The translations under genes were made by a program, and so were the position numbers. A stretch of 13,064 nucleotides of DNA. It comes from Candidatus Gracilibacteria bacterium CG2_30_37_12. Its GTDB lineage: Bacteria; Patescibacteriota; Gracilibacteria; BD1-5; UBA2023. The DNA lies in contig MNYO01000108.1 of assembly GCA_001873165.1 (NCBI GenBank), forward strand, positions 1-13,064, given 5' to 3'. Positions 525 through 13,064 of this stretch are shown here, in pieces; position 1 is the first letter of the stretch, and each line of letters begins with the position of its first letter. Under the pieces are notes generated by a model. That model was not told where the DNA came from. It searched no databases and saw nothing but the letters and a program-made list of their open reading frames with translations.

Positions 525-2255
525 TTACATTTTCTCTGGCATTTCTATCGCCAAAAGTTCAAATCCTTTTTTCAGTGTCTCACTGATTTTCATAATCAAA
601 CTCAATCGGAAGTTTCGGAGATTAGCATCTTGTTCCTCAAGAATCTTCGGAGTATGTACATAGAATGCATTGAACTCACTCGCAAGTTCATAGCAATACG
701 TTGCGAGAATATGAGGTTTGTATTTATTCGCAGTATCTAAGATTGCCTTATTAAAAAATGAAAGACGACGAAGACAGGCTCGGTCGTATTCAGAAAGCTC
801 GAGTTTATCTGCCTGAAATGAGGTGATTTTTCCCGATTTTTCGATAATATTTTTTGCACGAACGTACGAGTATTGAATATACGGACCACTATTCCCTTCG
901 AAAGAAAGAGCTTTGTCCCAATCAAAAACCACATCTTTTTCGCGGTCTTGTGCGAGATAAGAATACTTAATAGCTCCGATAGAAATAGCCTCTATGTCTG
1001 CGTTGGAAAGTGATTGTCCTTTTTCTACGAGAATATTTTTAGTTCGAGCAAAACCTTCTTCTATCAAATCTTGCAAACGAATAATAATACCCTTTCTTGT
1101 CGACATAGCACCTTCTTTAAGTCGTATATATCCATTAGTTATATTATACAATTCTGTGTGCTCTAAAAGCTCTGGCCAAGCTTGTCTCGCGACAGAAAAA
1201 CATTGTCTAAAATGAAGTTGTTGTCGAACATCAGAACAAATAAGAATCTTTGTTGGATTCCAACCATTCGTCATACGATATTTTGTAGCTGCAAGATCCG
1301 ACGCTAGATATCCATGTGTCCCATCACGTTTGGCAAGCATACAAGAAGGTATTTTACTTTCTTCGGGAAATATTACTCCGACAGAACCATCCTCATTTTT
1401 CGTAGCTATTTCTTTTTCTATAAGTTCCGCCACGACTGATTTCATACTATATTGCAGATCTGGATGATTTCCGAGCTTCGGAAGTGGAAGTCCTTCATAG
1501 AAACTTTCACCTATTGCGTAATCTGGTTTTGCTCCAATCAAACCTATAATCTCATTAGAACGATTAACAGAATAAGAAGTAAACTCCTTCCAAAGTTCCA
1601 TATTTTCAATATCCGACTCAGAAAGTTTCTTAAATTCGTTTCTACAAAGTTCTTCTACCAGAGGATCGGCTTCCGCATCGGCTGTTATTTTAATATACAC
1701 TTCTAAAAGATGTTCGATCGCATCTTCTTTCAGTTTTTCTTGATCTCCATACTTTTTATATCCAGCAATGAGTTTTCCAAATAATCCACCCCAATCACCC
1801 AAATGATTATCTCCAATAACATTATAACCCTGATATCGATAAAGATTTACTATCGCTTGTCCGATAGACGGAGTACAAAGATGTCCAATATGAAAAGGTT
1901 TTCCGATATTAAGTCCAATATAATCCACGACAACTGTTTTATTATTTGTAGGTTTATTCTCAGTTGAGAGAGAACTGAATATATCCACCCAGGCTTCATT
2001 CGTCAGAAAGAAATTCACATATCCGCCCATAATCGACACTTCTTTGAAGTATTCAGAATGCTTTTTGAGACCTTCGGCAACTTTTTCAGCAATCACTGAA
2101 GGAGCAAGTTTCATCACTTTTGCATACGGAAATATATTGAAAGCGAAGTCTCCGAGCTCTTTTTTTGGTGGCGTATCTAGTGTAATATTTGGTTCGGAAA
2201 TCTTAGGAAATGCTCCAACCACTATATCTAGTAGTAAATCTTCGACAATCGACAT
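525..2255 (-). CDS. argS: Arginyl-tRNA synthetase (class I)
   Basis: ArgS joins arginine to tRNA-Arg with ATP in the cytoplasm. The 576-residue length is normal. An N-terminal Add-1 domain (about 1-90), which contacts the tRNA D-loop, is followed by the Rossmann catalytic domain with the HIGH signature 'FHIGH' (121-125) in 'GLNIGKPFHIGH'. The KMSKS equivalent is 'MSTRKG' (384-389), the usual form in ArgRS. 'EGNSGPYIQYSYVRA' (453-467) leads into the all-helical DALR anticodon-binding domain (to 576). The frame contains no TGA codon, unlike many neighbours, so it reads the same under either code. The ATG at 2253-2255 follows 'AATATTTAACAT', with no Shine-Dalgarno sequence. A good promoter lies about 35-60 nt upstream. 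The start of the IS-interrupted gene is 19 nt downstream, suggesting one transcript. Confidence 0.97.
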   Translation of the reverse strand: MSIVEDLLLDIVVGAFPKISEPNITLDTPPKKELGDFAFNIFPYAKVMKLAPSVIAEKVAEGLKKHSEYFKEVSIMGGYVNFFLTNEAWVDIFSSLSTENKPTNNKTVVVDYIGLNIGKPFHIGHLCTPSIGQAIVNLYRYQGYNVIGDNHLGDWGGLFGKLIAGYKKYGDQEKLKEDAIEHLLEVYIKITADAEADPLVEELCRNEFKKLSESDIENMELWKEFTSYSVNRSNEIIGLIGAKPDYAIGESFYEGLPLPKLGNHPDLQYSMKSVVAELIEKEIATKNEDGSVGVIFPEESKIPSCMLAKRDGTHGYLASDLAATKYRMTNGWNPTKILICSDVRQQLHFRQCFSVARQAWPELLEHTELYNITNGYIRLKEGAMSTRKGIIIRLQDLIEEGFARTKNILVEKGQSLSNADIEAISIGAIKYSYLAQDREKDVVFDWDKALSFEGNSGPYIQYSYVRAKNIIEKSGKITSFQADKLELSEYDRACLRRLSFFNKAILDTANKYKPHILATYCYELASEFNAFYVHTPKILEEQDANLRNFRLSLIMKISETLKKGFELLAIEMPEKM

Positions 2256-3007: not shown

Positions 3008-3880
3008 TTACCCTCTTTTCAGATACACTTTTACAAAACTACTCTTGAGTTCTGCAGCTTTTTCTGGGAGTTTTTCTGATTGTCCTTGTTCTGCGAGAGT
3101 TTTGATATCCTCAAGATTTTTCCGAATCGCCTGAATCTCAGCATCGTTCGCTTCTGCTGCGATGGCATTGAGTTTATCATTTGCCTCTGGATAGGTATTG
3201 ATGACTCCTACAGGATCTTTGGTATCGGCTGCTTCTATGACTTTTTCCATAACATCATGGAAATCCACGAGAGTTATCGCAAGCATGGAAAAATTATTTC
3301 TCTTCAAAATATCCTGAAAAATAGGACGAACTTTCTCGAGATTCAGATGTGATTCTTTCAAGTCTCCGGTATATATTTTATCTTTTAAATCCGTAATAAT
3401 GCTCGCAACTTTTGTTATATCATTATTCCATTGTTTATCTCCATACAACGCATATGGGTGATACGAAGTATACTTTTTCAAGAATACAGCATACTCTTTT
3501 GAGAGCGCATCGTAGTTTGCGATAGATTCTGGACGCATCTCTTTTCCAGTATTAAAAAGCGTTTGTTTATAATAATTATTCATCCGATTATAATCCTCGA
3601 GGAAAATCTTCTTGGTAAAAAAAGCGCTATAATAACTTCCAACTCCTCCGATGAGTACAAAAAGAATGATAAAAATAAGCCAGTATGTCTTCGAAATCTT
3701 TATAACTTTCTTATCAGTACGAATTTTTAATACAGTATACAATGGACAAAAACCAACTATTCCCGTCACCAAAAGTATGAGACTGAGAACAAAAAACACT
3801 ATTTGGAGAGTAGAACCCAGCCAAAAGAATCCGATGATAAAGAGAATTTCTGAAAGAGAAATACGTCCGAATCGATCCAT
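3008..3880 (-). CDS. DUF2892 (YgaP-type) membrane-anchored protein with a helical C-terminal domain
   Basis: The N-terminus (about 1-50) is a two-helix DUF2892 membrane hairpin, recognised by its length, hydrophobic profile and the hallmark 'GFCPLYTVLKI' (43-53). A third hydrophobic segment follows at about 67-86. The remaining ~200 residues are charged and probably mostly helical, with several Lys/Glu-rich heptad-like stretches near the end (230-290), and most likely lie outside the membrane. Function is unknown. DUF2892 alone usually occurs as a small protein, so this C-terminal extension is the distinctive part. The start at 3880 is just preceded by GAAGGGTGA, the closest thing to a Shine-Dalgarno in the window, though spaced tightly. 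If TGA is Gly, an upstream ATG at 3907 would add nine residues (MKNLINEGG) in frame. A terminator lies between this gene and pheS, so it is probably transcribed on its own. Confidence 0.8.
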   Translation of the reverse strand: MDRFGRISLSEILFIIGFFWLGSTLQIVFFVLSLILLVTGIVGFCPLYTVLKIRTDKKVIKISKTYWLIFIILFVLIGGVGSYYSAFFTKKIFLEDYNRMNNYYKQTLFNTGKEMRPESIANYDALSKEYAVFLKKYTSYHPYALYGDKQWNNDITKVASIITDLKDKIYTGDLKESHLNLEKVRPIFQDILKRNNFSMLAITLVDFHDVMEKVIEAADTKDPVGVINTYPEANDKLNAIAAEANDAEIQAIRKNLEDIKTLAEQGQSEKLPEKAAELKSSFVKVYLKRG

Positions 3881-3920
3881 TCACCCTTCATTTATAAGAT
3901 TTTTCATATACAGAAATAGT

Positions 3921-3987: not shown

Positions 3988-5010
3988 TTAAAACTGCTTC
4001 AAAAATGCAATATTTGGATTCTGAAAATAACGCATATCTGGAATTGCATAATCGATCATAACCAAACGATTGAGTCCGAATCCGAAGGCAAATCCGGTAT
4101 ATTCTTCTGGGTCGATTCCTCCTTCTCGCAGAACATTCGGATGAATAAGACCTGCTCCCATAAATTCTATCCAACCAGAACGCTTACATATCTTGCATCC
4201 TGTTCCAGAACAGAATGGGCAAGAGAAATCCACTTCCACTCCCGGCTCCACGAATGGGAAATATCCAGGACGCATTCGGATGAAAACCTCTCGTCCGAAG
4301 ATATCAGAGAGCATCGTTCTGAGTGTATACTTGAGGTTCGCAAGAGTAATGTTTTTATCAATCACTATTCCCTCTACTTGGTAGAAAGTATTCTCGTGCG
4401 TCGCATCGATATCCTCGTTTCGGAACACACGTCCAGAGATAATCGCCTTAATCGGCGCTCCTTTGGATTTCATGATGATATTCTGCATACTCGAAGTTTG
4501 CGTCGCGAGAACATTTCCTGTTCCCTCGAGCCAGAAGGTATCCTGCATATCGCGTGCTGGGTGGGTTTTTGGGATATTGAGGGAATCGAAATTCCAATAT
4601 TCGGTGGTGACTTCGTTCGACTCGTAACAATCGAATCCCATACGTTTAAAAGAGTCTTCGACTTTCATAAGCGTCCGAGTAATCGGATGAAGGTGATTTC
4701 CGGTATCTTCTGAAACTGGGGTCGTCACATCCTCGAATTCGTTCGCGAGTTGGTCGGCGATAAGTTTGTTCTTAATGACCACGAGTTGTACTTCAAAAGC
4801 CGCAGTGATGCGAATCTTGCATTCATTGATGGCTTTACCGACGGTTTTTTTATCTTCGTCGGAGAGGTCTTTTACTCATTTGAGGAGTTCGGTCAAAGAC
4901 CCGTTTTTTCCGAGAATAGCATTTCGGAGTTCGATAAGAGCCACTTCGGAAGTGAGAGCAGAGATTTGAATAAGGGAAGCTTGTTCAAGGGATTGGAGAG
5001 TGTGGAGCAT
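3988..5010 (-). CDS. pheS: Phenylalanyl-tRNA synthetase alpha subunit (class II)
   Basis: PheS carries the active site of the (alpha-beta)2 enzyme that charges tRNA-Phe. With TGA read as Gly at codon 45 the protein has 340 residues, a normal bacterial length. Residues 1-90 form the coiled-coil arm. 'ELLKGVKDLSDEDKK' places the recoded Gly where other PheS have 'LLKGLKDL..EER'. Motif 2 is 'GRVFRNEDIDATHENTFY' (193-210), followed by 'HFx/RPGYFPFVEP'-type sequence (247-256). The 'CPFC..GCKICKRSGW' stretch (264-279) and motif 3 'GFGLNRLVMIDY' (310-321) are complete. With the standard code the gene would wrongly begin at the internal ATG at 4782 and lose the arm. The start at 5010 has no Shine-Dalgarno (TTTTCCTCT). 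It lies 27 nt after the stop of the membrane protein gene, and a terminator follows. pheT, the usual partner, is absent from this window. Confidence 0.96.
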
Positions 5011-5037
5011 AGAGGAAAATTAGTTTTTTTAAATATC

Positions 5038-5499
5038 TTATTTTTTAGTTATTTCGGTATTTATGATATCTTCACAGGTTATATCTACTTTCTTAAAAAG
5101 ATACATATAGCAAGTGCTCGCCAATGTAAGCGGTAAGGCTAGTAATATTAGTATTTTTCATACTCTGACATCCGAATGGGAAAGTCCCATAAAAAAAATT
5201 CATAATAATATCACACAAAGTATTATCGATACTATAAAGAAAAACCAGAGAAACAACTTTTTTCCACGAAGAAGAATTAAAGTTAATACAAGTGATAACG
5301 ATCAGTAAATAACCAATCAACCTCCAACCAAAGCACTTACTCAGAAAGATACATACAGTATTCAGTGTTTTATAGAAAATATAATTATACTTGGTAAGTT
5401 ACTATGCAATAACCATGCAATCAAACAAAGTAATATTCCAAGCACAAGTGCTCATAAATATCCTAGTAGTTTCTTTTTAGTATTTTCATGAACATCCAT
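5038..5499 (-). CDS. Polytopic membrane protein with seven UGA-encoded glycines, function unknown
   Basis: In code 25 this is one uninterrupted frame of 153 residues from ATG at 5499 to TAA at 5038-5040. In the standard code it has seven stops (codons 16, 46, 53, 61, 66, 100 and 114). All seven fall in or next to hydrophobic segments, as expected for helix-packing glycines, for example 'SALVGGGLVIYGS' (55-67). Hydrophobic segments at about 11-31, 47-77, 82-104 and 114-135 suggest four or five membrane helices. The N-terminus MDVHENTKKK and the tail KKVDITCEDIINTEITKK are polar. I recognise no family. It sits 22 nt after the Bro-N gene and 27 nt before pheS on the same strand, so it is probably co-transcribed with pheS. 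A TATAAT lies about five bases before the ATG (5505-5510), without a clear -35. Confidence 0.8.
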
Positions 5500-5521
5500 A
5501 CTGTATTATATAGTTTATCAA

Positions 5522-6358
5522 TTAAAGTTTACTTAAAAGCTTCTTTCTCTCCGGCGAGAGACAATTCGATTTCGAGACAACTTTTTGCTTCGTCTTCGTT
5601 TCCAGTTCTTTTCTAGCATTTCCTGCGACTGTTCCTCATTCTTTGCTCGCTTTCTGTACTTCGCGGAAACCTTTGGAGTCTTTCTGTTTCATAATCTCGG
5701 TTGTCGAGGCTTCTCCAAGCATAGTGAATATGATTTCCAAGTCCGTCATATGATCTCGGAGATTGTCTTTTTTCTTGGTGAGTCCTTTGTAATCGAGATA
5801 TTCACTCGGTGTCATCCCAAATGTCGCACGAGATATCTCTGCTGTGAGGATTCCGTATTCTTTCTTCTCTACTCCTCGTTCATCCCATTCATCCGTCATA
5901 CCTTTACGAACCGCGATTCCTCGCACTCGTTTATCGATCCAATCCTTAGTATATCACTTCTGTTCGTAGAGCGATCGCATACGTTCCATTGCAAGCTCTG
6001 GGTCGTCTATTTCTTGGATTCGCTCGTACCCAACCTGAGCCAGCCATCGTTTGAACGGTTCTGCTTTTGGAGAAGAAATAGATTGAATAATGCGAAGAAG
6101 TGTTTCAGTATCGGCACAATCTGTGAGACGCATCTTCCTGTCTTCTGCCATCATTTTGAACTGTCCGATTTTTTCGGACACTTCAGTATAGCCTTCTATA
6201 ATAATCTTTTTCTTTATATCCGACCAATACTTTCGTGGTTCTCGCCCAGTAACATCGAGCACAGATATAATATCAACGATGGAAAAATACCATTTTTCAT
6301 CGTGCCAAATACGACGGATTTCTTTTTGCTCGAAGAGTGCGAGAGAGGAGTGAGACAT
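5522..6358 (-). CDS. Bro-N domain protein (phage antirepressor / DinD-like)
   Basis: With TGA as Gly the frame gives 278 residues. The N-terminal ~100 residues are a Bro-N domain ('EIRRIWHDEKWYFSIVDII', 'REPRKYWSDIKKK'), a DNA-binding module of phage antirepressors and baculovirus BRO proteins. The rest follows the conserved C-terminal part often seen with it in bacteria: 'VRGIAVRKGMTDEWDERG', 'EISRATFGMTPSEY', 'LRDHMTDLEIIFTMLGEAS'. Near the end 'KEGGTVAGNARKELE' reproduces the usual 'KEGG..AGNARKELE', and its first Gly is a TGA (5636-5638). The other TGA lies in 'EQKGYTKDWI'. The start at 6358 (MSHSSLAL) is preferred to the ATG at 6400 because the latter reads through a structured intergenic repeat. 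Its role in the host is unknown; DNA binding or control of a resident prophage gene is an inference from the domain. Confidence 0.85.
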
Positions 6359-6380
6359 AGAAAAAATATTTAAAAATGGA

Positions 6381-6432
6381 AGATCTTCCCCGAAGGGCAA
6401 TCCTTTAGGACTGAATCGAGTTCAGGATGACG
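6381..6432. repeat. Structured intergenic repeat between dnaN and the Bro-N gene
   Basis: The stretch holds CTTC-CCC-GAAG (6385-6395), TCCT pairing with AGGA (6401-6404 with 6424-6427) around CTGAA-TCGAG-TTCAG (6411-6425), and ends in GATGACG. Read on the minus strand it begins CGTCATCCTGAACTCGATTC, a type of sequence common as a dispersed intergenic palindrome in bacterial genomes. Only one copy is seen here, so repetition in this genome is not shown. The remaining ~95 nt up to the dnaN stop contains three GACTTT copies at 6496, 6505 and 6512, and no gene. Confidence 0.5.
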
Positions 6433-6526
6433 ATTATTTTAATTGGATTACCACTCCTATTTGCGGGATTATAATGACAAATCTCTTACTTTACGGACTT
6501 TATAGACTTTCGACTTTCTGACTCGA

Positions 6527-7645
6527 TTATATCTTCAACGGCATAATAATATGTCGGTATGTACTCTTCCCATCAGTTTCTGGAACTCCCTTAATCATAA
6601 TCGGTGAAAGTGGCGTTTCGAAATCAATACTAACATAATCTTCTTTGATAACTCCGAGAACTTCGAGCATATAGACGGAATTGAGTCCGATTTGCGCATC
6701 TTCTCATTCGACGGAAGCAATCACACGGATGGTTCCTGCTCCGATTTCGGTATCTCCCGTGGAAATCTCGAGTCCAGATTCGGACCGAAAAGCGATACGA
6801 GTATTGTAGTTATTTTCACGACTAATCAGATTTGCTCGTTTGAGAGCGATTATCAAATAATTTCGCATCACTACTCACTTTGTGGTGTACCCCTTTGGGA
6901 AGAAATTTGTATAGTCGGGAAAATGTCCATTCAGCAATCGAGAAAAAACTTTGATAGTTCCAAATACTACGAGAAATTGATTCTCAGAAAGGAAAAGTTC
7001 TACAGGAACATTCTCAGGAAGAATCCTCGAAAGTTCCATAGCTGTTTTGGAAGGGATGATAATCGCCGTAGAATCATTCGATTGCACCGAATTTATGAGA
7101 ATATATTCCGAGAGTCGGAAACTATCAGTGGAGGCAAATACGGCATTTTTGTCTTGAAGCGCGAGATAAATACCCGCAAGAGTGGGACGAATATTTCCTT
7201 CGGCGGTAGAAAAAAGGGTTCGATCGATCGCTTTTTTCAAATCTCCAGAATTGATTCGGAATGGTTGTTCTGCTTTAAATACTGGGATGAGTGGAAATTT
7301 TGATGCCTCGATTCCTTTTACTTTCGTTTCGGAAGATGGGGTGGTGAATTGGAGTGAACCTCCAGAAAGAAGTTCGATAGTCACTTTATCGTCTTGTACG
7401 AGAGAGATAAAAGAAGCAAGAAACTTAGCAGAAACCGTGAAATTCCCTTCAAGTTCTATATCTACTCATGTATCGATGATGTACTCCATTGCCATCTCCA
7501 AATTATTAGCAGTCAATACCACTTTCTTATACTGAGCAGAAATGAGAATATTTTCAAGTATCGGCGTCATATTAGAAACCGTACTTGCATGACTCACAAC
7601 ATCAATCGCCTCTTTGAGGACTTTTGTATCAACGGTAAAACGCAT
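6527..7645 (-). CDS. dnaN: DNA polymerase III sliding clamp (beta subunit)
   Basis: DnaN dimerises into a ring that tethers the replicative polymerase to DNA. The protein has 372 residues, the normal size, only when TGA is read as Gly at codons 60, 257 and 314. Standard-code reading gives three fragments. It starts MRFTVDTKVLKEAIDVVS and has the three repeated clamp domains: 'PILENILISA' and 'NNLEMAMEY' in domain 1, 'EGNIRPTLAGIYLAL' and 'ASTDSFRLSEY' in domain 2, and 'NGHFPDYTNFFP' at the start of domain 3. It ends 'YRHIIMPLKI', matching the clamp's typical 'MPM.L' C-terminus near the partner-binding pocket. The start at 7645 has no Shine-Dalgarno (TTCTTCTCTCC). dnaA and recF are not adjacent. 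A hairpin lies 60-80 nt upstream in its leader, and the divergent gene begins 187 nt away. Confidence 0.97.
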
Positions 7646-7705
7646 GGAGAGAAGAATAAGATAGAGAAATATTTTTTTCTAATAACTTGTCTACAGAGTA
7701 CAAAA

Positions 7706-7725
7706 AACTTGAGAAAAATCAAGTT
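7706..7725 (-). terminator. Terminator-like hairpin in the dnaN upstream region
   Basis: A perfect seven-base inverted repeat AACTTGA/TCAAGTT with a six-base loop is followed, in the minus direction, by TTTT before a G (TCAAGTTTTTTG). No minus-strand gene lies upstream that it could terminate, because the next gene is divergent. If dnaN is transcribed from further out, it sits in the dnaN leader and could act as an attenuator. Otherwise it simply separates the two promoters. Confidence 0.35.
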
Positions 7726-7770
7726 GAAATAAATAGTTCTCGGTATGATTTATAAAATTGGTTCGATTTT

Positions 7771-7799
7771 TTGACAGGATGAAGAATTTATACTATATT
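7771..7799 (+). promoter_or_regulatory. Near-consensus sigma70-type promoter for the gene at 7832
   Basis: A perfect TTGACA (7771-7776), a 17-nt spacer and TATATT (7794-7799) make this the strongest promoter match in the window. The predicted start near 7806 gives a leader of about 26 nt before the ATG at 7832. Confidence 0.75.
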
Positions 7800-7831
7800 A
7801 GAAATACATATTTCAAACAAGCAATAACCTT

Positions 7832-9073
7832 ATGGCTCTTAATCTCAATGCTCTCAAAAATATCCCTGTAGTAGGGGCATCCACTTCTCCAAAAACAGGA
7901 AATATTCCTCTTCCTACCATTCAATGAGATAATAAAATCTCCCTGTCCGCAGACGGTAATAATACCATACCTGAGATGGAAAAAGTGACAGAAAAAATTC
8001 CTTCTACCGGTCCGAAGATTTCTCTTATGAAATTGAAACAGAATTCTCAAGGAGAAACTTCTACTATGCAACCCGTACAAGAACCTATAGTGGAAAATAT
8101 AGAACAAGAAATATCTCTTGCTGAAATTGCCGAGCAAGCAGAAAAAAAGCAAAATATTTCTCCTGTTAATGCCATAGAGACTCCTCTACAAACAGAAGTA
8201 GAATGAATAAAGATATCTGATGTTCTATCTCTAGAAATAGAATGAAAAGAAGAAGCTTATTCTATTTTTTCTAATGTGGAAACTGAAGCTATTCCATCGG
8301 AAGAAGAAATCATTCTTGAACAAACACCTTCTAAAGAATTTTTCCCAAATTTTCATATCTCTAATGAACTAGGTCTTGATAACGATCTCCTCAATCTTAA
8401 TCTTGATAGCAATGAAATCATTAAAGATCATTGAGACATTTCTATTTCCATCGAAAAATCTTCTCAGGTAAAAGCGATTGATGTAACTGCTATCAATCCT
8501 GAAATACAAGAAATAATAGAAACTACAGTTCCTGTTCTTGATACAAAAGATTTAGAAATAATAGAAATTGAGGCGACAGATATTCTTGAACCCTCTGTTC
8601 AAGAATCTTCTATGGAAGTCATTTCTGAAACCATTACATCGGAAAAGATTCCAGAAGATATTCTTATTACACCAGAGTATGTCGCAGAAGTAAAAACGGA
8701 ACTCAGTGAGCAACGTCGAGCAGGATTTCGATTTTTTGTACAGAAAAACACAAAAATCATGGCAGGAGTCAGTTTTTTGATTATTGCCATTGGAGTATTT
8801 TTCTCTAGTTCACTATTTTCGACCGATATTCAAAAATCTAGAAAAAGCAATATTCAGGAAGTGATAAAAAACACTCCAGTTCCTCCAGTTGTAACAGAGA
8901 ATACGACATCTGGAGCAATCTCAGAACCAGTCATATCAACTGATGTATTTCCTCTTGAAAGTACCAACTATGAAGCAGGGCGTGACTATACTATTATCAA
9001 AAATACCAAGAAAAATATACCAAGAAATAGTGTTGTTGAGTCAGTTCCTAACGCAGAAGTACCAACTCCATAA
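7832..9073 (+). CDS. Acidic single-pass membrane protein, function unknown
   Basis: In code 25 this is one 413-residue frame (TGA at codons 32, 125, 138 and 201); in the standard code only pieces remain. Residues 1-300 are very rich in Glu, Ile, Ser and Thr with few aromatic residues, suggesting a long disordered acidic region with short repeated phrases such as 'EIIE', 'EIEA' and 'ISLAEIAEQAEKKQ'. 'LSEQRRAGFRFFVQKNTK' (basic, about 291-308) precedes one hydrophobic segment 'IMAGVSFLIIAIGVFF' (about 309-324). The last ~85 residues are polar, with a Pro-rich linker 'NTPVPPVVTENT'. Positive-inside logic puts the long N-terminal part in the cytoplasm and the short tail outside. I recognise no family. 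It has its own near-consensus promoter and a candidate terminator at 9132-9166, so it looks monocistronic. The start follows AATAACCTT, again with no Shine-Dalgarno. Confidence 0.8.
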
Positions 9074-9079
9074 AAAGAT

Positions 9080-9107
9080 TTGATAAAATAAAAAATACGC
9101 ATATACT
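9080..9107 (+). promoter_or_regulatory. Possible promoter in the 9073-9206 gap (nusA leader)
   Basis: TTGATA (9080-9085), a 16-nt spacer and TATACT (9102-9107) would start RNA near 9114, upstream of the terminator hairpin at 9132. If used, the hairpin would lie inside the nusA leader. Confidence 0.4.
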
Positions 9108-9131
9108 CCCTCTTATATTTGGGAACTCGAG

Positions 9132-9166
9132 AAAAGAATTTGGATTTCCCTCCAAATTCTTTTTTT
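9132..9166 (+). terminator. Intrinsic terminator between the membrane protein gene and nusA
   Basis: A perfect 13-base inverted repeat, AAAAGAATTTGGA (9132-9144) and TCCAAATTCTTTT (9151-9163), has the loop TTTCCC and runs on into further T (to 9166). It ends the gene stopping at 9073. It may also act as an attenuator for nusA, whose ATG is 40 nt further on. Confidence 0.85.
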
Positions 9167-9205
9167 ATACCAAACTATTCATTTATTCTCCTAATATTAT
9201 CACTT

Positions 9206-10267
9206 ATGATAGATATACGAAAAATAGAATCTGCTATTAATCAAATTGCTGCGGAAAAGAAAATCCCACGAGAACGACTCGTAGAAATTATAGAATCTGC
9301 CATTAAAACTGCCTACCGAAAAGATTTCGGAAATAAAGACAGTGAAGTAAATGTCCACCTCGATTTTGATACAGGAGACATTGAAATCACGGTAGAAAAA
9401 ACTATCGTGGAAACAGTAGAAGATCCAGATACTCAGATGACTCTGGCTGATCTCGGAGATGATGCTGTGAATTTCGCAATCGGAGATACCATCGAAATCG
9501 ATGTCAGTGAAGAAGTTCTTGCAGACGCAGAAGGATTTGGACGTATCGCTTCTCAAGCAGCTCGCCAAGTAATTATCCAAAAAATTCAAGAAACAGAAAA
9601 AGAAAAAATCTTCAATCTCTTCAAAGGAAAAGAAGGAGAAATTATCAGTCTCAAAGTAGAACTCGTAGAGAAAAATCGTGTACTTCTTGATTACAATGGA
9701 AATCAGGTTGTCCTCCCAAAATCTGAACAAGTTTCCAAGGATAAATATACTCCAGGATCACGAATCTACCTTTCTGTTGCAAAACTCGAGGAAGATACAC
9801 TTGCTGGACCTCGTGTAACTCTTACTCGAAAAGATACCAATCTTGTTGTGAAACTTTTTGAGATGAATGCTCCAGAACTCGAAGATGGAACCATTGAGAT
9901 TGTCAGCATCGCTCGTACTCCTGGCTTCAAGACGAAAATAATTGTTGCTTCTGAATACAACGAAGTAGACCCAGCAGGATGTCTCATCGGACCAAAAGGA
10001 GCCAGAGTTCGTGCAGTTATTGACGAGATTGCTGGAGAAAAAGTTGATATCATTAACTATACAGAAAACCGAGAAGAGCTCGTACGAAAATCGCTTGTTC
10101 CAGGAGTAGTAGAAAAAGTTACTATCGATGAAGAAAATAAAATCATCCGATGTATCGTTGCTGAGGAAGAAAAAGCAAAGGTTCTCGGAAAAGGAGGAAC
10201 CAATATCAATCTTACATCGGAACTTCTCGGATATAAGATCATCTTGGATACAAAGGAAGAGAAGTAA
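9206..10267 (+). CDS. nusA: Transcription termination/antitermination factor NusA
   Basis: NusA binds RNA polymerase and nascent RNA and modulates pausing, intrinsic termination and antitermination. The 353-residue protein has the standard layout without the proteobacterial C-terminal repeats. The polymerase-binding N-terminal domain (1-~135) carries 'KIPRERLVEIIESAIKTAYRK' and 'GRIASQAARQVIIQKI' (112-127). An S1 domain follows (~140-205, 'GKEGEIISLKVELVEKNRVL'). KH1 has 'CLIGPKGARVRAVIDEI' (259-275) and KH2 has 'VLGKGGTNINLTSELLG' (326-342). The ATG at 9206 fits the family N-terminus; the longer upstream frame runs through the terminator hairpin and is not used. There is no TGA codon. The zinc-ribbon gene follows after 52 nt and rplI after that. 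The usual rimP-nusA-infB order is not seen here. Confidence 0.97.
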   Translation: MIDIRKIESAINQIAAEKKIPRERLVEIIESAIKTAYRKDFGNKDSEVNVHLDFDTGDIEITVEKTIVETVEDPDTQMTLADLGDDAVNFAIGDTIEIDVSEEVLADAEGFGRIASQAARQVIIQKIQETEKEKIFNLFKGKEGEIISLKVELVEKNRVLLDYNGNQVVLPKSEQVSKDKYTPGSRIYLSVAKLEEDTLAGPRVTLTRKDTNLVVKLFEMNAPELEDGTIEIVSIARTPGFKTKIIVASEYNEVDPAGCLIGPKGARVRAVIDEIAGEKVDIINYTENREELVRKSLVPGVVEKVTIDEENKIIRCIVAEEEKAKVLGKGGTNINLTSELLGYKIILDTKEEK

Positions 10268-10319
10268 AATATATTATCATAAGAAAATTCTTACTTTCTA
10301 TTTTCTCATATCTCATCAT

Positions 10320-10565
10320 ATGACAGGGCTACTAACGGAATATTCAGGAGGAAACGAAATTTTTGAAATATATCAAAATATGCCCAATATCGATTCCAAA
10401 AAAGGACAACGTTTCTTGCGAACCCTATCAGATGATCTTGCTTGAAAAGTTTTGGAATTGGTTTTAATGAATACTTGTACTGGATGCGAAAGGGCTCTCA
10501 CTCCTAATACTACTACTTGTGAACATTGTGGAAATATGCACGATCAAATTGATGAAGATTTGTAA
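10320..10565 (+). CDS. Small zinc-ribbon protein, function unknown
   Basis: The protein has 81 residues with TGA read as Gly at codon 42 ('DDLAGKVLEL'). Two CxxC pairs, 'CTGC' (53-56) and 'CEHC' (67-70), form a compact four-cysteine zinc ribbon near the C-terminus. The preceding ~50 residues are probably helical. It ends with the acidic tail DQIDEDL. A nucleic-acid or ribosome-associated role is possible from the fold and the position between nusA and rplI (22 nt before the rplI start), but nothing more specific can be said. The ATG at 10320 is the first after nusA in this frame. In the standard code the zinc-ribbon part is cut from its start. Confidence 0.75.
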
Positions 10566-10587
10566 TATATCTTAACACCTTTAACTT

Positions 10588-11052
10588 ATGGCAGCAAGCA
10601 CCGTATCAGTCCAACTTCTCGAACGTATCGCAAATGTGGGGAAAGAAGGAGAAATCATCGAAGTGAGTCACGTCTATGCGAGGAATTTTCTCATCGCGAA
10701 AAAGCTGGCGAGAATCGCTACTCCAGAACTCATCAAACGAGAAACAGAGAAAAAGAAAAAAGCTCAAGATAATAAAAGTCACCTTATGGAAGCACGTCAC
10801 GAGATTGCTGAGAAACTTCACAATATGACTCTGACTTTCGAACTTGCTGGAAGCAAAGACAAGATTTTCGGAGGACTCGGGGAACATGAAATTATCCTCG
10901 CTATCCAGAAAAAATACGATGTGGAATTAGAGAAAAAACATATCCTCCTTCCAGAAGGACACAAACTCAAACAGGTGGGAATTACCGATATCAAAATCCA
11001 TCTCGGAAGCGATGTGAACATTAAGATGCATATCGATATCAAAAGTAAATAA
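10588..11052 (+). CDS. rplI: 50S ribosomal protein L9
   Basis: L9 binds 23S rRNA with its N-terminal domain and reaches out from the L1 side of the large subunit through a long helix to a second globular domain. The 154 residues fit the family. 'VSVQLLERIANVGKEGEIIE' and 'VYARNFLIAKKLARIAT' (about 29-45) are the N-terminal domain signature. 'IKRETEKKKKAQDNK' begins the connecting helix. 'GSKDKIFGGLGEHEIILAI' and 'HILLPEGHKLKQVGITDIKI' make up the C-terminal domain. Compared with typical L9 it has a few extra residues (MAAST) at the N-terminus. There is no TGA codon. No Shine-Dalgarno precedes the ATG (CCTTTAACTT). Confidence 0.97.
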   Translation: MAASTVSVQLLERIANVGKEGEIIEVSHVYARNFLIAKKLARIATPELIKRETEKKKKAQDNKSHLMEARHEIAEKLHNMTLTFELAGSKDKIFGGLGEHEIILAIQKKYDVELEKKHILLPEGHKLKQVGITDIKIHLGSDVNIKMHIDIKSK

Positions 11053-11055
11053 GAT

Positions 11056-11222
11056 TGTCATTTCGAGCGAGTGATAACGACGGAAAAATCTACATAAGCT
11101 TTCTTTAAATTTCAGTATCTTGCCATTTGAGTTAATTAAATAAATCTTGCATCTGATATAATTCCTAGTACTTAAAATAGATAATGGGGCTAAGGTAGAT
11201 TTCTCACTCCGTTCGAAATGAC
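11056..11222. repeat. Inverted-repeat intergenic element between rplI and ruvX
   Basis: The 195-nt gap between the two genes is almost filled by an element with related ends in inverse orientation. TGTCATTTCGAGCGAGTGA and later GGAAAAATCTAC (11056-11092) mirror GTAGATTTCTCACTCC and GTTCGAAATGAC (11195-11222). The interior is AT-rich and non-coding. The end motif 'GTCATTTCGAGCG...AATCTAC' resembles dispersed intergenic repeats seen in many bacteria. It has no transposase, so it would be a MITE- or REP-like sequence if repeated. Only one copy is in the window. Confidence 0.6.
11154..11162 (+). promoter_or_regulatory. Possible extended -10 promoter for ruvX, inside the repeat element
   Basis: TGATATAAT gives TG-n-TATAAT, an extended -10 element, about 85 nt before the ruvX ATG. 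No clear TTGACA lies at the right distance. Transcription read-through from nusA-rplI is an alternative. Confidence 0.3.
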
Positions 11223-11247
11223 GTATTTTCTATCCCTCTTATATACT

Positions 11248-11643
11248 ATGTCCATCCTCGCCATCGATTACGGAACCAAGAAAATCGGACTCGCCATCGA
11301 GATAGAATGAATTGCTCTTCCTCTCTCGATTATTCCCACCAAGGAAGCATTTTCTCGACTTCCAAAGATTATTAAGGAGCGCCATATTGACACGATTCTC
11401 ATTGGGATTGCGAATCATATGGATGGAACAACTTCGGAACAAGCTATTCGAACTCGTGAATTTCAGAAAAAACTCCAAAATATTCTCCCAAAAGATATAC
11501 AATACATAGAATGGGATGAGCGATTGACGAGTTTCGAAGCGAAAAATGCCGTGGATCCTTTCGGAAAAGATCCGAGAAAATTCATCGATGATATAGCGGC
11601 CGGAATTCTATTACAGAGTTATTTAGATGCGACAAAATCGTAA
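11248..11643 (+). CDS. ruvX: RuvX/YqgF-family Holliday junction resolvase-like nuclease
   Basis: YqgF proteins have an RNase H-like fold and act on 16S rRNA precursor ends and/or Holliday junctions. The 131-residue length is normal once TGA is read as Gly at codon 21 ('IEIEGIALPLS', matching the small residue after strand 1 in the family). The acidic active site is visible: Asp7 in 'LAIDYGTKKIGLA', Asp90-Glu91 in 'WDERLTS', and Asp114/115 in 'FIDDIAAGILLQ'. The ATG at 11248 fits the family N-terminus. In the standard code the first strand with Asp7 would be cut off. The uppS frame overlaps the last 17 nt, indicating one transcript for ruvX-uppS-smpB. Confidence 0.93.
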
Positions 11644-12352
11644 AACGGAGATAATTTACTTTTTAATTTTTTCGCTCGTGCACCTCTGATTTATCATGGA
11701 CGGAAATCGTCGATGGGCAAAACAACATATGATTCAAACTCTTCTCGGTCACCAAGAATGACGAATCCGTCTCGAAGAAATGGTAGAACTTTGCTATAAT
11801 GAGAAAATAGAATACTGTAGTTTTTGGGCACTTGCCAAGAAAAATATAGAAAATAGAAGTACGGAAGAGCTCACATATCTCTATGATCTGCTCGTAAAAA
11901 GTATTCAGAGTCTCCTCCCAAAACTTCTCGAAAAAAGTATCAAATTTGAATGGGTGGGGAATTCAGATATACTTCCCCCTCATATTGTAAAAGTCCTCAA
12001 TGATGCCACAAAAGAAGCAGAGAACGGAACAAAAATGACTCTTATCCTGGCAATCGGATATGGCTGACAAGATGAGATTATCCGTGGAATGAAGAATTTC
12101 ATAAAGAATGGTGGTGATATAAATTCGCTCGATGAAACCACCTTTCTTCCATTTCTCGATACGGGACGATTTCCGCCACCAGACTTGATTGTACGAACGG
12201 GTGGCGATACGAGACATTCTGGATATTTCCTCTATACGAGTGAATATAGTGAATATTATTTCACCGATACTCTCTGGCCCGATTTCAAAGAAAGAGAATT
12301 CTACAAAGCCCTCGAAACCCTCAAATGAGCTCGGCGTATGTTTGGAAAATAA
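11627..12352 (+). CDS. uppS: Undecaprenyl diphosphate synthase (cis-prenyltransferase)
   Basis: UppS adds isopentenyl units in cis to farnesyl-PP to make the C55 lipid carrier for cell-wall synthesis, at the inner face of the membrane. The full protein appears only with TGA as Gly at codons 21, 45, 147 and 234. 'HLGFIMDGNRRWAK' carries the catalytic Asp of MDGN. 'GYGGQDEI' (144-151) matches the invariant 'YGG'. 'PPPDLIVRTGGDTRHSGYFL' and 'SEYYFTDTLWPDF' are the substrate and metal-binding C-terminal signatures. The family's metal-binding Glu in 'RT.GE.R' is Asp here. The ATG at 11627 gives 241 residues and overlaps ruvX by 17 nt, but the residues EIIYFLIFS it adds are unusually hydrophobic. 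A GTG at 11678, giving 224 residues and starting just before 'HLGF', is a good alternative. smpB begins 13 nt downstream. Confidence 0.92.
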
Positions 12353-12365
12353 TTTTTTATAATTT

Positions 12366-12824
12366 ATGGCATCACTTACTACTTCACTTCACGTCAATAA
12401 AAAAGCCTTGTTCGATTATGAAATCGTGCAAGGGTACGAAGCGTGAATAAAATTGACCGGACCAGAAGTGAAAAGTGTACGAGCAAAACAGTGTAATTTG
12501 AAAGGAAGTTATGTGAGTCTCGCTTCAGGACGACCTATTCTCAAAGGACTCCATATTTCCCCTTATGAACACTTGCCTCATAAACTCGGGATCGATCCAT
12601 CGGCGGACCGAGAAATATTTCTCCACAAGAAAACTATCGATTACCTTACAGGGAAACTCAAGGAAAAAGGTTTTTCGCTCATTCCTACAGAAGTATATTC
12701 CAAAGGAAATTTGATCAAGATATCGGTCGCACTTGCCCGAGGACGAAAAGTTTTTGAGAAAAAACAAGTATTGAAAGAGCGGGATGTAAATCGAGATATG
12801 GAACGAGAAATCGGAAGATACTAA
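12366..12824 (+). CDS. smpB: SsrA (tmRNA)-binding protein SmpB
   Basis: SmpB binds tmRNA and brings it to stalled ribosomes for trans-translation. The 152 residues match the family: 'NKKALFDYEIVQGYEAG' (11-27) with Gly27 encoded by TGA, where SmpB has the conserved '.EAG..L.G.EVKS.R'. This is followed by 'LTGPEVKSVRAKQCNLKGSY' (30-49), 'HLPHKLGIDP' and 'REIFLHKKTIDYLTGKLK', then 'GFSLIPTEVYSKGNLIKISV'. The basic tail 'ARGRKVFEKKQVLKERDVNR' reaches toward the decoding centre. With the standard code, the track of the protein would begin at residue 30 or be lost. No tmRNA gene was found in the window. The ATG at 12366 follows TTTATAATTT. Confidence 0.96.
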
Positions 12825-12931: not shown

Positions 12932-13064
12932 ATGACAAAAAAAATGTCCGGAATGTAGGTCTTCTCGGATCAAAAAAGATGGGTGCAATAATGCCTGAAA
13001 ACCAAAAAATAGATGCAAAGAATGCGGGCGTTCATTTGTAAACAGAATGTATCGAAAACAAGAA
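12932..13064 (+). CDS. IS1-type transposase, zinc-finger N-terminus (partial; start out of frame across an A8 tract)
   Basis: From 12945 one frame reads 'CPECRSSRIKKDG', then 'AGKPKNRCKECGRSFVNRMY' to the window end. This is the InsA-type zinc finger (CPxC...G...C..C...F) of IS1-family transposases, with the conserved Gly encoded by TGA at 12996-12998. The only nearby ATG, at 12932, is followed by ACA and eight A (12937-12944) and is in a different frame, giving MTKKMSGM and a TAG. One A fewer would give MTKKCPECRSSR, an ideal start. A base-count error, polymerase slippage on the A-run, or a damaged copy could each explain this. The catalytic DDE part lies beyond the right edge. No terminal inverted repeat could be assigned. 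Confidence 0.6.

Follow-up and report, generated by a model that had tools for sequence, protein, structure and literature searches.

How the codon UGA is read decides what the genes mean on the stretch of DNA studied here, the 13,064 nt of contig MNYO01000108.1 from Candidatus Gracilibacteria bacterium CG2_30_37_12 (hereafter "the window", i.e. the whole stretch). The window is one contig of a draft genome of 946,456 bases in 134 contigs that is 90.5% complete. When dnaN, pheS, uppS, and smpB are translated with the standard code they seem disrupted, so that the choice of genetic code determines the annotation of the window. A preliminary description of the sequence had proposed genetic code 25, in which UGA encodes glycine, and had placed the organism on this basis. 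We agree and put the probability that the organism is a Gracilibacterium reading UGA as glycine at about 98%. The placement is supported by TGA at glycine sites, by a gene for release factor 1 (RF1) without a match over the cut-off for release factor 2 (RF2), and by the ArgS relatives in named genomes, of which 14 of 15 are titled Candidatus Gracilibacteria (the best with 81% identity). The window is one more case of the UGA reassignment already published for Gracilibacteria. A genome outside of the window, G025, in which a UCA tRNA with glycine identity elements coexists with RF2, matters more than the window itself and is described below.

In-frame TGA and stop codons

The gene set comprised the 14 accepted open reading frames (ORFs), 13 of which are complete, and was read under translation table 25. 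It contains 26 in-frame TGA codons, one fewer than the approximately 27 counted before. No internal TAA or TAG is present in the coding frames, while the two other frames of the same ORFs have 51 and 89 TAA, 67 and 20 TAG, and 75 and 111 TGA codons, respectively. All 13 complete ORFs end with TAA. The preliminary description, according to which TAA and TAG are the sole true stops and TGG remains in use, held up in both respects: UAA is the stop codon in the window, UAG is also used elsewhere in the genome, and 25 TGG codons were counted in the window ORFs.

TGA accounts for 26 of the 221 glycine codons (12%), and its distribution among the genes is uneven (permutation p 0.0003; p 0.06 when a 153-aa ORF is left out). 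UGA would be a minor glycine codon with a usage that differs from gene to gene. In the 153-aa membrane-like protein (5038-5499), seven of the 13 glycines are encoded by TGA, far above the 12% of the window.

Alternatively, the genes might follow the standard code, their TGA codons being due to errors in sequencing or to gene decay, or UGA might be read through occasionally. The lack of TGA in argS, nusA, and rplI is compatible with this explanation, as is the missing UCA tRNA of the draft (see below). However, errors or readthrough fit poorly with many in-frame TGA codons next to a complete lack of internal TAA and TAG, with several TGA at conserved glycines in full-length genes of an essential type, and with the absence of RF2 over the cut-off from all 20 sampled genomes of the order. 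We regard this explanation as extremely improbable.

Residues at the TGA sites

Ten TGA sites of the window were compared with chains in the PDB, with the TGA position masked as X and with up to five chains per site, some of which represent the same protein. Three sites have glycine in all five chains, i.e. UppS 11759, UppS 12065, and SmpB 12444. Two further sites have mostly glycine: DnaN 6704, with glycine in four of five chains and aspartate in the fifth, and RuvX 11308, with glycine in two chains of one protein and tryptophan in a third.

Several of these results weigh against glycine. Five of the ten sites are not glycine columns, i.e. UppS 11687 (alanine in five of five chains), PheS 4876 (threonine in all four covering chains), DnaN 6875 (leucine, isoleucine, or valine), UppS 12326 (a variable column with Ser/Asn/Gly/Gly/Gln), and DnaN 7466 (no glycine, in a gapped alignment). 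The tryptophan at RuvX 11308 belongs here as well, and so does the Pfam score of RuvX, which is slightly higher with tryptophan (102.3 bits) than with glycine (101.4 bits). The preliminary description had named six invariant glycine sites: for UppS 12065 and SmpB 12444 this was confirmed, whereas UppS 11687 and PheS 4876 turned out to be alanine and threonine columns; two further sites named there, Bro-N 5636 and InsA 12996, lie outside of the ten. Its more general claim that TGA replaces glycine and not tryptophan is borne out by glycine at the most strongly conserved TGA sites and by tryptophan in a single chain at one of the ten sites.

Tryptophan would be expected if the organism used genetic code 4, as Mycoplasma does. 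Code 4 also entails the loss of RF2, so that this feature is common to both codes, and the RuvX score and the tryptophan in one of three RuvX chains are in its favor. However, none of the nine other aligned sites has tryptophan in the chains compared, and three have glycine in five of five chains. The Pfam score of UppS is 198.4 bits with glycine versus 191.9 bits with tryptophan, TGG is in regular use, and the UCA tRNAs of the order carry glycine identity elements (see below). Taken together, there is hardly any room for code 4.

Release factors and UCA tRNAs in the order

The draft encodes RF1: prfA was found with 443.5 bits (cut-off 423), and the gene itself contains three TGA codons. For prfB, the gene for RF2, the best match in the 90.5%-complete draft reached 257 bits, compared to a cut-off of 370, and lay on the prfA locus only. 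The sample of the class comprised 145 genomes, 20 of them from the order of the window. Not one of these 20 has prfB over the cut-off, as opposed to 93 of the other 125 genomes. The remaining 32 are made up of 20 genomes of one family, f13, and of 12 scattered genomes. UGA is a sense codon at conserved glycine sites in a genome that encodes RF1 and in which RF2 was not found; for the absence of RF2, which the preliminary description had named as a check, the result is the same in the draft and in the other 19 genomes of the order, with no match over the cut-off. Without RF2, a UCA tRNA would have no competitor for UGA.

One genome of family f7, G141, is a single contig, 98% complete, and has no prfB over the cut-off; the other sampled f7 genomes have the gene.

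The second check named there, a tRNA-Gly(UCA) in the same genome, had a mixed outcome. Of the 20 genomes, 18 gave a match of at least 96 bits to a model of this tRNA, including one from the same genus as the genome of the window. The two members without a match are G111 and the window's own draft (946 kb, 134 contigs), and the latter absence counts against glycine. No more than 22 tRNA matches were obtained in this draft, and tRNAs for Ala, Asn, Asp, Ile, Lys, Pro, and Val are not among them. A gap in the assembly would be the simplest explanation, although this does not prove it. The tRNA was first spotted in the sister genome G001, and full-length matches were present in nine of 14 genomes of named relatives. 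In G001 it is flanked by the gene for an NDK protein, for which a search of the window's draft, performed without a positive control, gave no match.

A hand-made pattern of the UCA tRNA gave two hits in the window's genome, both of which were rejected: one lies inside tRNA-Trp, and ARAGORN found no tRNA at the other. The pattern was unfit for this purpose, as the real tRNA, with the loop CTTCAAC, would escape it.

ARAGORN assigned the anticodon tca to 18 of 18 tRNAs of the order, yet named them tRNA-SeC, a label that is a trap for automatic annotation. They have the acceptor pairs G1:C72, C2:G71, and G3:C70 together with U73, features that are used as glycine criteria for tRNAs in the accessible text of PMC8629427. 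A structure of four helices, in which the anticodon stem has six pairs, agrees with 99.7% of the pair cells in 13 distinct sequences, and seven pairs are altered on both sides, compared to none in slid controls. The GG doublet that tRNA D loops usually carry is missing from the D loop of these tRNAs (AA NN GAG N GA). The first 52 bases are nearly invariant across the order (L092-L109, L077-L083). A dedicated tRNA with the anticodon UCA and glycine identity elements, which is seen in the relatives, would presumably read UGA also in the genome of the window.

A genome with a UCA tRNA and RF2

Ranking of the tRNA model hits surfaced G025, a genome of family f14 and the sole representative of its order in the sample. 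The evidence comes from this one draft genome and is confined to sequence. Its UCA tRNA of 77 nt (L111, 1501-1577) has the same glycine identity elements as those of the window's order and resembles the UCA tRNA of the f13 genome G085. The stretches that were read comprise 251,697 bases of about 1.5 Mb. TGA is present in 28 of 127 ORFs of at least 200 aa, and 149 TGA versus 3,876 GGN codons were counted, i.e. UGA represents 3.7% of the glycine codons in these stretches. The TGA-bearing ORFs with a Pfam match are mostly pilus, surface, and transport genes. No TGA was found in the genes for EF-G, RpoB, and RF2.

For comparison, the nearest RF2-bearing genomes, G049 and G029, were used as standard-code controls. 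TGA codons more than 100 codons away from both ends numbered 84 in 127 ORFs of G025, compared to 14 in 46 ORFs of G049 and 16 in 43 ORFs of G029. Such bare counts separate G025 poorly from the controls, whereas Pfam domains that span a TGA do separate them. Of the 44 TGA-bearing G025 ORFs of at least 100 aa, 28 were scanned, and at least six of these have a match spanning a TGA, i.e. two PilB-type ATPases, a PilC-type protein, a Ca2+-type P-ATPase, an fn3 domain, and an Sde0182_C domain. In the controls, ten of 44 TGA-bearing ORFs of at least 200 aa were scanned, chosen for internal TGA; none of the ten has a domain across a TGA. Four of them gave Pfam hits, and in these the TGA lies between domains.

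The masked TGA sites of G025 were again compared with PDB chains, several of which are the same protein. Glycine is present in every chain at eight of 13 sites: PilB 114, 196, and 371 (five chains), and P-ATPase 127, 649, and 679 as well as 363 and 525 of the second PilB (three chains). The remaining five sites have Lys/Asp, Ala, Thr/Thr/Lys, Val/Val/Gly, and a single covering chain with Gly.

TGA codons near the ends of ORFs (last 20 codons) numbered nine in G025 versus 6.0 expected, and seven versus 3.2 and eight versus 2.8 in the controls. These end-of-ORF counts did not reveal that G025 clearly terminates genes with TGA, although some such use is compatible with them. EF-G ends with TAG in G029 and with TAA in G049.

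The prfB gene of G025 was identified over the cut-off (1.1e-139) and encodes 343 aa with intact SPF and GGQ motifs; the absence of RF2 that accompanies code 25 is therefore not observed in this genome. The gene is located 2.9 kb from a TGA-bearing pilB on the same contig of 59.6 kb. Likewise, the P-ATPase with TGA codons is encoded on the contig that carries EF-G, and the G+C fractions of twelve stretches range from 0.341 to 0.385. Besides the tRNA locus, the coordinates that bear on the coexistence of RF2 with TGA at conserved glycines are L133 6963-7994 and 10886-12130, and L222 12052-14751. A chimeric contig is an unlikely source of the pairing of RF2 and TGA.

The residue in front of the TSF motif of RF2 is His in five PDB chains and Gln or Glu in 51 of 51 RF2 proteins compared from the class, including G025. 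We rejected the idea that the exchange of His for Gln makes the RF2 of G025 blind to UGA because all 50 other RF2 genes compared (of 92 others over the cut-off in the class) also have Gln or Glu at this position.

Phylogenetic placement of G025

In a tree of EF-G, the order of the window and family f13 form two fully supported clades, and G025 groups with the RF2-bearing families f4 (support 89/87) and f17 (93/88). With EF-G alone, topologies in which G025 joins code-25 groups were not rejected by the approximately unbiased (AU) test (p-AU 0.106 to 0.158). A combined EF-G and RpoB alignment of 28 rows, without G017 and G043, was analyzed with a quick method; for G155 and six f13 rows it contained EF-G only. 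A search for RpoB upstream of EF-G in five f13 genomes gave no hit, and the position of f13 therefore depends on EF-G. In the combined tree, G025 groups with f4 and f17 (98%). Tests of two other groupings on these data, G025 joined to the order of the window (p-AU 3e-5) and G025 joined to that order plus f13 (p-AU 2e-6), rejected both. These tests suggest that G025 either gained UGA as a glycine codon separately or received the tRNA by transfer, with RF2 kept.

In the combined tree, the branching order among f13, the order of the window, and G016, an RF2-bearing genome of family f5, is a fork without resolution. Given this fork, the RF2-less groups may not be a single clade.

Implications of the combination in G025

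We consider it quite probable that the G025 lineage represents a further origin of UGA as a glycine codon in the class, with an intact RF2, and thus a living intermediate of codon capture. UGA would then be a glycine codon and a codon recognizable by RF2 at once. The order of events in such a capture would be the tRNA first and the loss of RF2 later; the available text of PMC6851277 discusses RF2 loss as an explanation of the UGA reassignment. The low fraction of UGA among the glycine codons, its restriction to 28 of 127 ORFs, and the TGA-free genes for EF-G, RpoB, and RF2 are in keeping with an intermediate state. In a bolder form, competition with RF2 might make the TGA-bearing genes of G025 conditionally expressed. 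If the interpretation is true, the coexistence of RF2 and a tRNA-Gly that reads UGA in one genome would allow the order of events to be tested directly.

In a full-text literature search, which left most subscription papers outside, we recognized no report of a bacterial genome that keeps RF2 and reads UGA as glycine. The accessible part of PMC8629427 describes the opposite pattern for two species labelled Gracilibacteria, which have RF2, lack a UCA tRNA, and use UGA as a stop.

Genes of the window

Six of the ORFs are on the minus strand, beginning with argS (525..2255), which has 37 GGN codons and no TGA. It is followed by a gene for a YgaP-like transmembrane protein (3008..3907; TGA at 3881; PF11127, 6.6e-14) and by pheS (3988..5010; a single TGA, at 4876; PF01409, 2e-86). 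The hypothetical 153-aa membrane-like protein (5038..5499) has no Pfam match; it has six GGN codons and TGA at 5452, 5362, 5341, 5317, 5302, 5200, and 5158. A gene for a Bro-N domain protein (5522..6400; TGA at 5954 and 5636; PF02498, 1.5e-10) and dnaN (6527..7645; TGA at 7466, 6875, and 6704) complete this strand.

The plus strand begins with a gene for a hypothetical protein (7832..9073; TGA at 7925, 8204, 8243, and 8432; no Pfam match) and nusA (9206..10267; 22 GGN, no TGA). A small zinc-ribbon-like ORF, the start codon of which is not settled, lies at 10326..10565 (TGA at 10443; PF12773, 4.8e-4, below the cut-off), and rplI at 10588..11052 (nine GGN, no TGA). The genes ruvX (11218..11643; TGA at 11308; PF03652, 6.6e-29), uppS (11627..12352; TGA at 11687, 11759, 12065, and 12326; PF01255, 1.5e-58), and smpB (12366..12824; TGA at 12444; PF01668, 1.7e-44) follow. 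The last ORF is a transposase-like fragment that leaves the window at its edge (12939..13064; TGA at 12996); the name InsA given to it before was not backed by any Pfam match. In the region 12932-13064 the frame of this fragment differs from that of an ATG at 12932, across an A tract.

Comparison with known systems

Within the Gracilibacteria, UGA as a glycine codon was predicted and then demonstrated with proteomic data from a BD1-5 bacterium (PMC4032931), and prfB has been reported to be absent and prfA to be present (PMC6851277), both according to the accessible text of these papers. As far as this text and that of PMC8629427 go, the code-25 Gracilibacteria share with the genome of the window the reading of UGA as glycine, a kept prfA, an absent prfB, and the stops TAA and TAG. 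The window does not differ from them in kind; the glycine-identity UCA tRNA of the group is unseen in the draft.

A reassignment of CGG or CGA to tryptophan in addition to that of UGA, as reported for Absconditabacteria and some Gracilibacteria, is very improbable for the window, if somewhat less so than code 4. In its favor, CGG is predicted to encode tryptophan in some Gracilibacteria in the consulted portion of PMC8629427. However, the CGG codon 112 of PheS stands at an arginine kept in five of five PDB chains; it is the one CGG site of diagnostic value. The CCG tRNA of G001 has the discriminator A and not the G73 that is taken for tryptophan in the same portion of PMC8629427. CGA is the most common arginine codon in the window, with 58 uses.

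The Absconditabacteria (SR1) have code 25 as well, so that UGA as glycine is common to both, and the frequent, ordinary use of CGA sets the window apart. Family f13, with no RF2 over the cut-off in any of its 20 genomes, may represent this group. Its member G085 has 297 TGA versus 166 GGN codons, compared to 76 versus 576 in the genome of the window. With code 4 the window shares UGA as a sense codon, and it differs from that code in the residue, glycine, and in the glycine-identity tRNA of its order.

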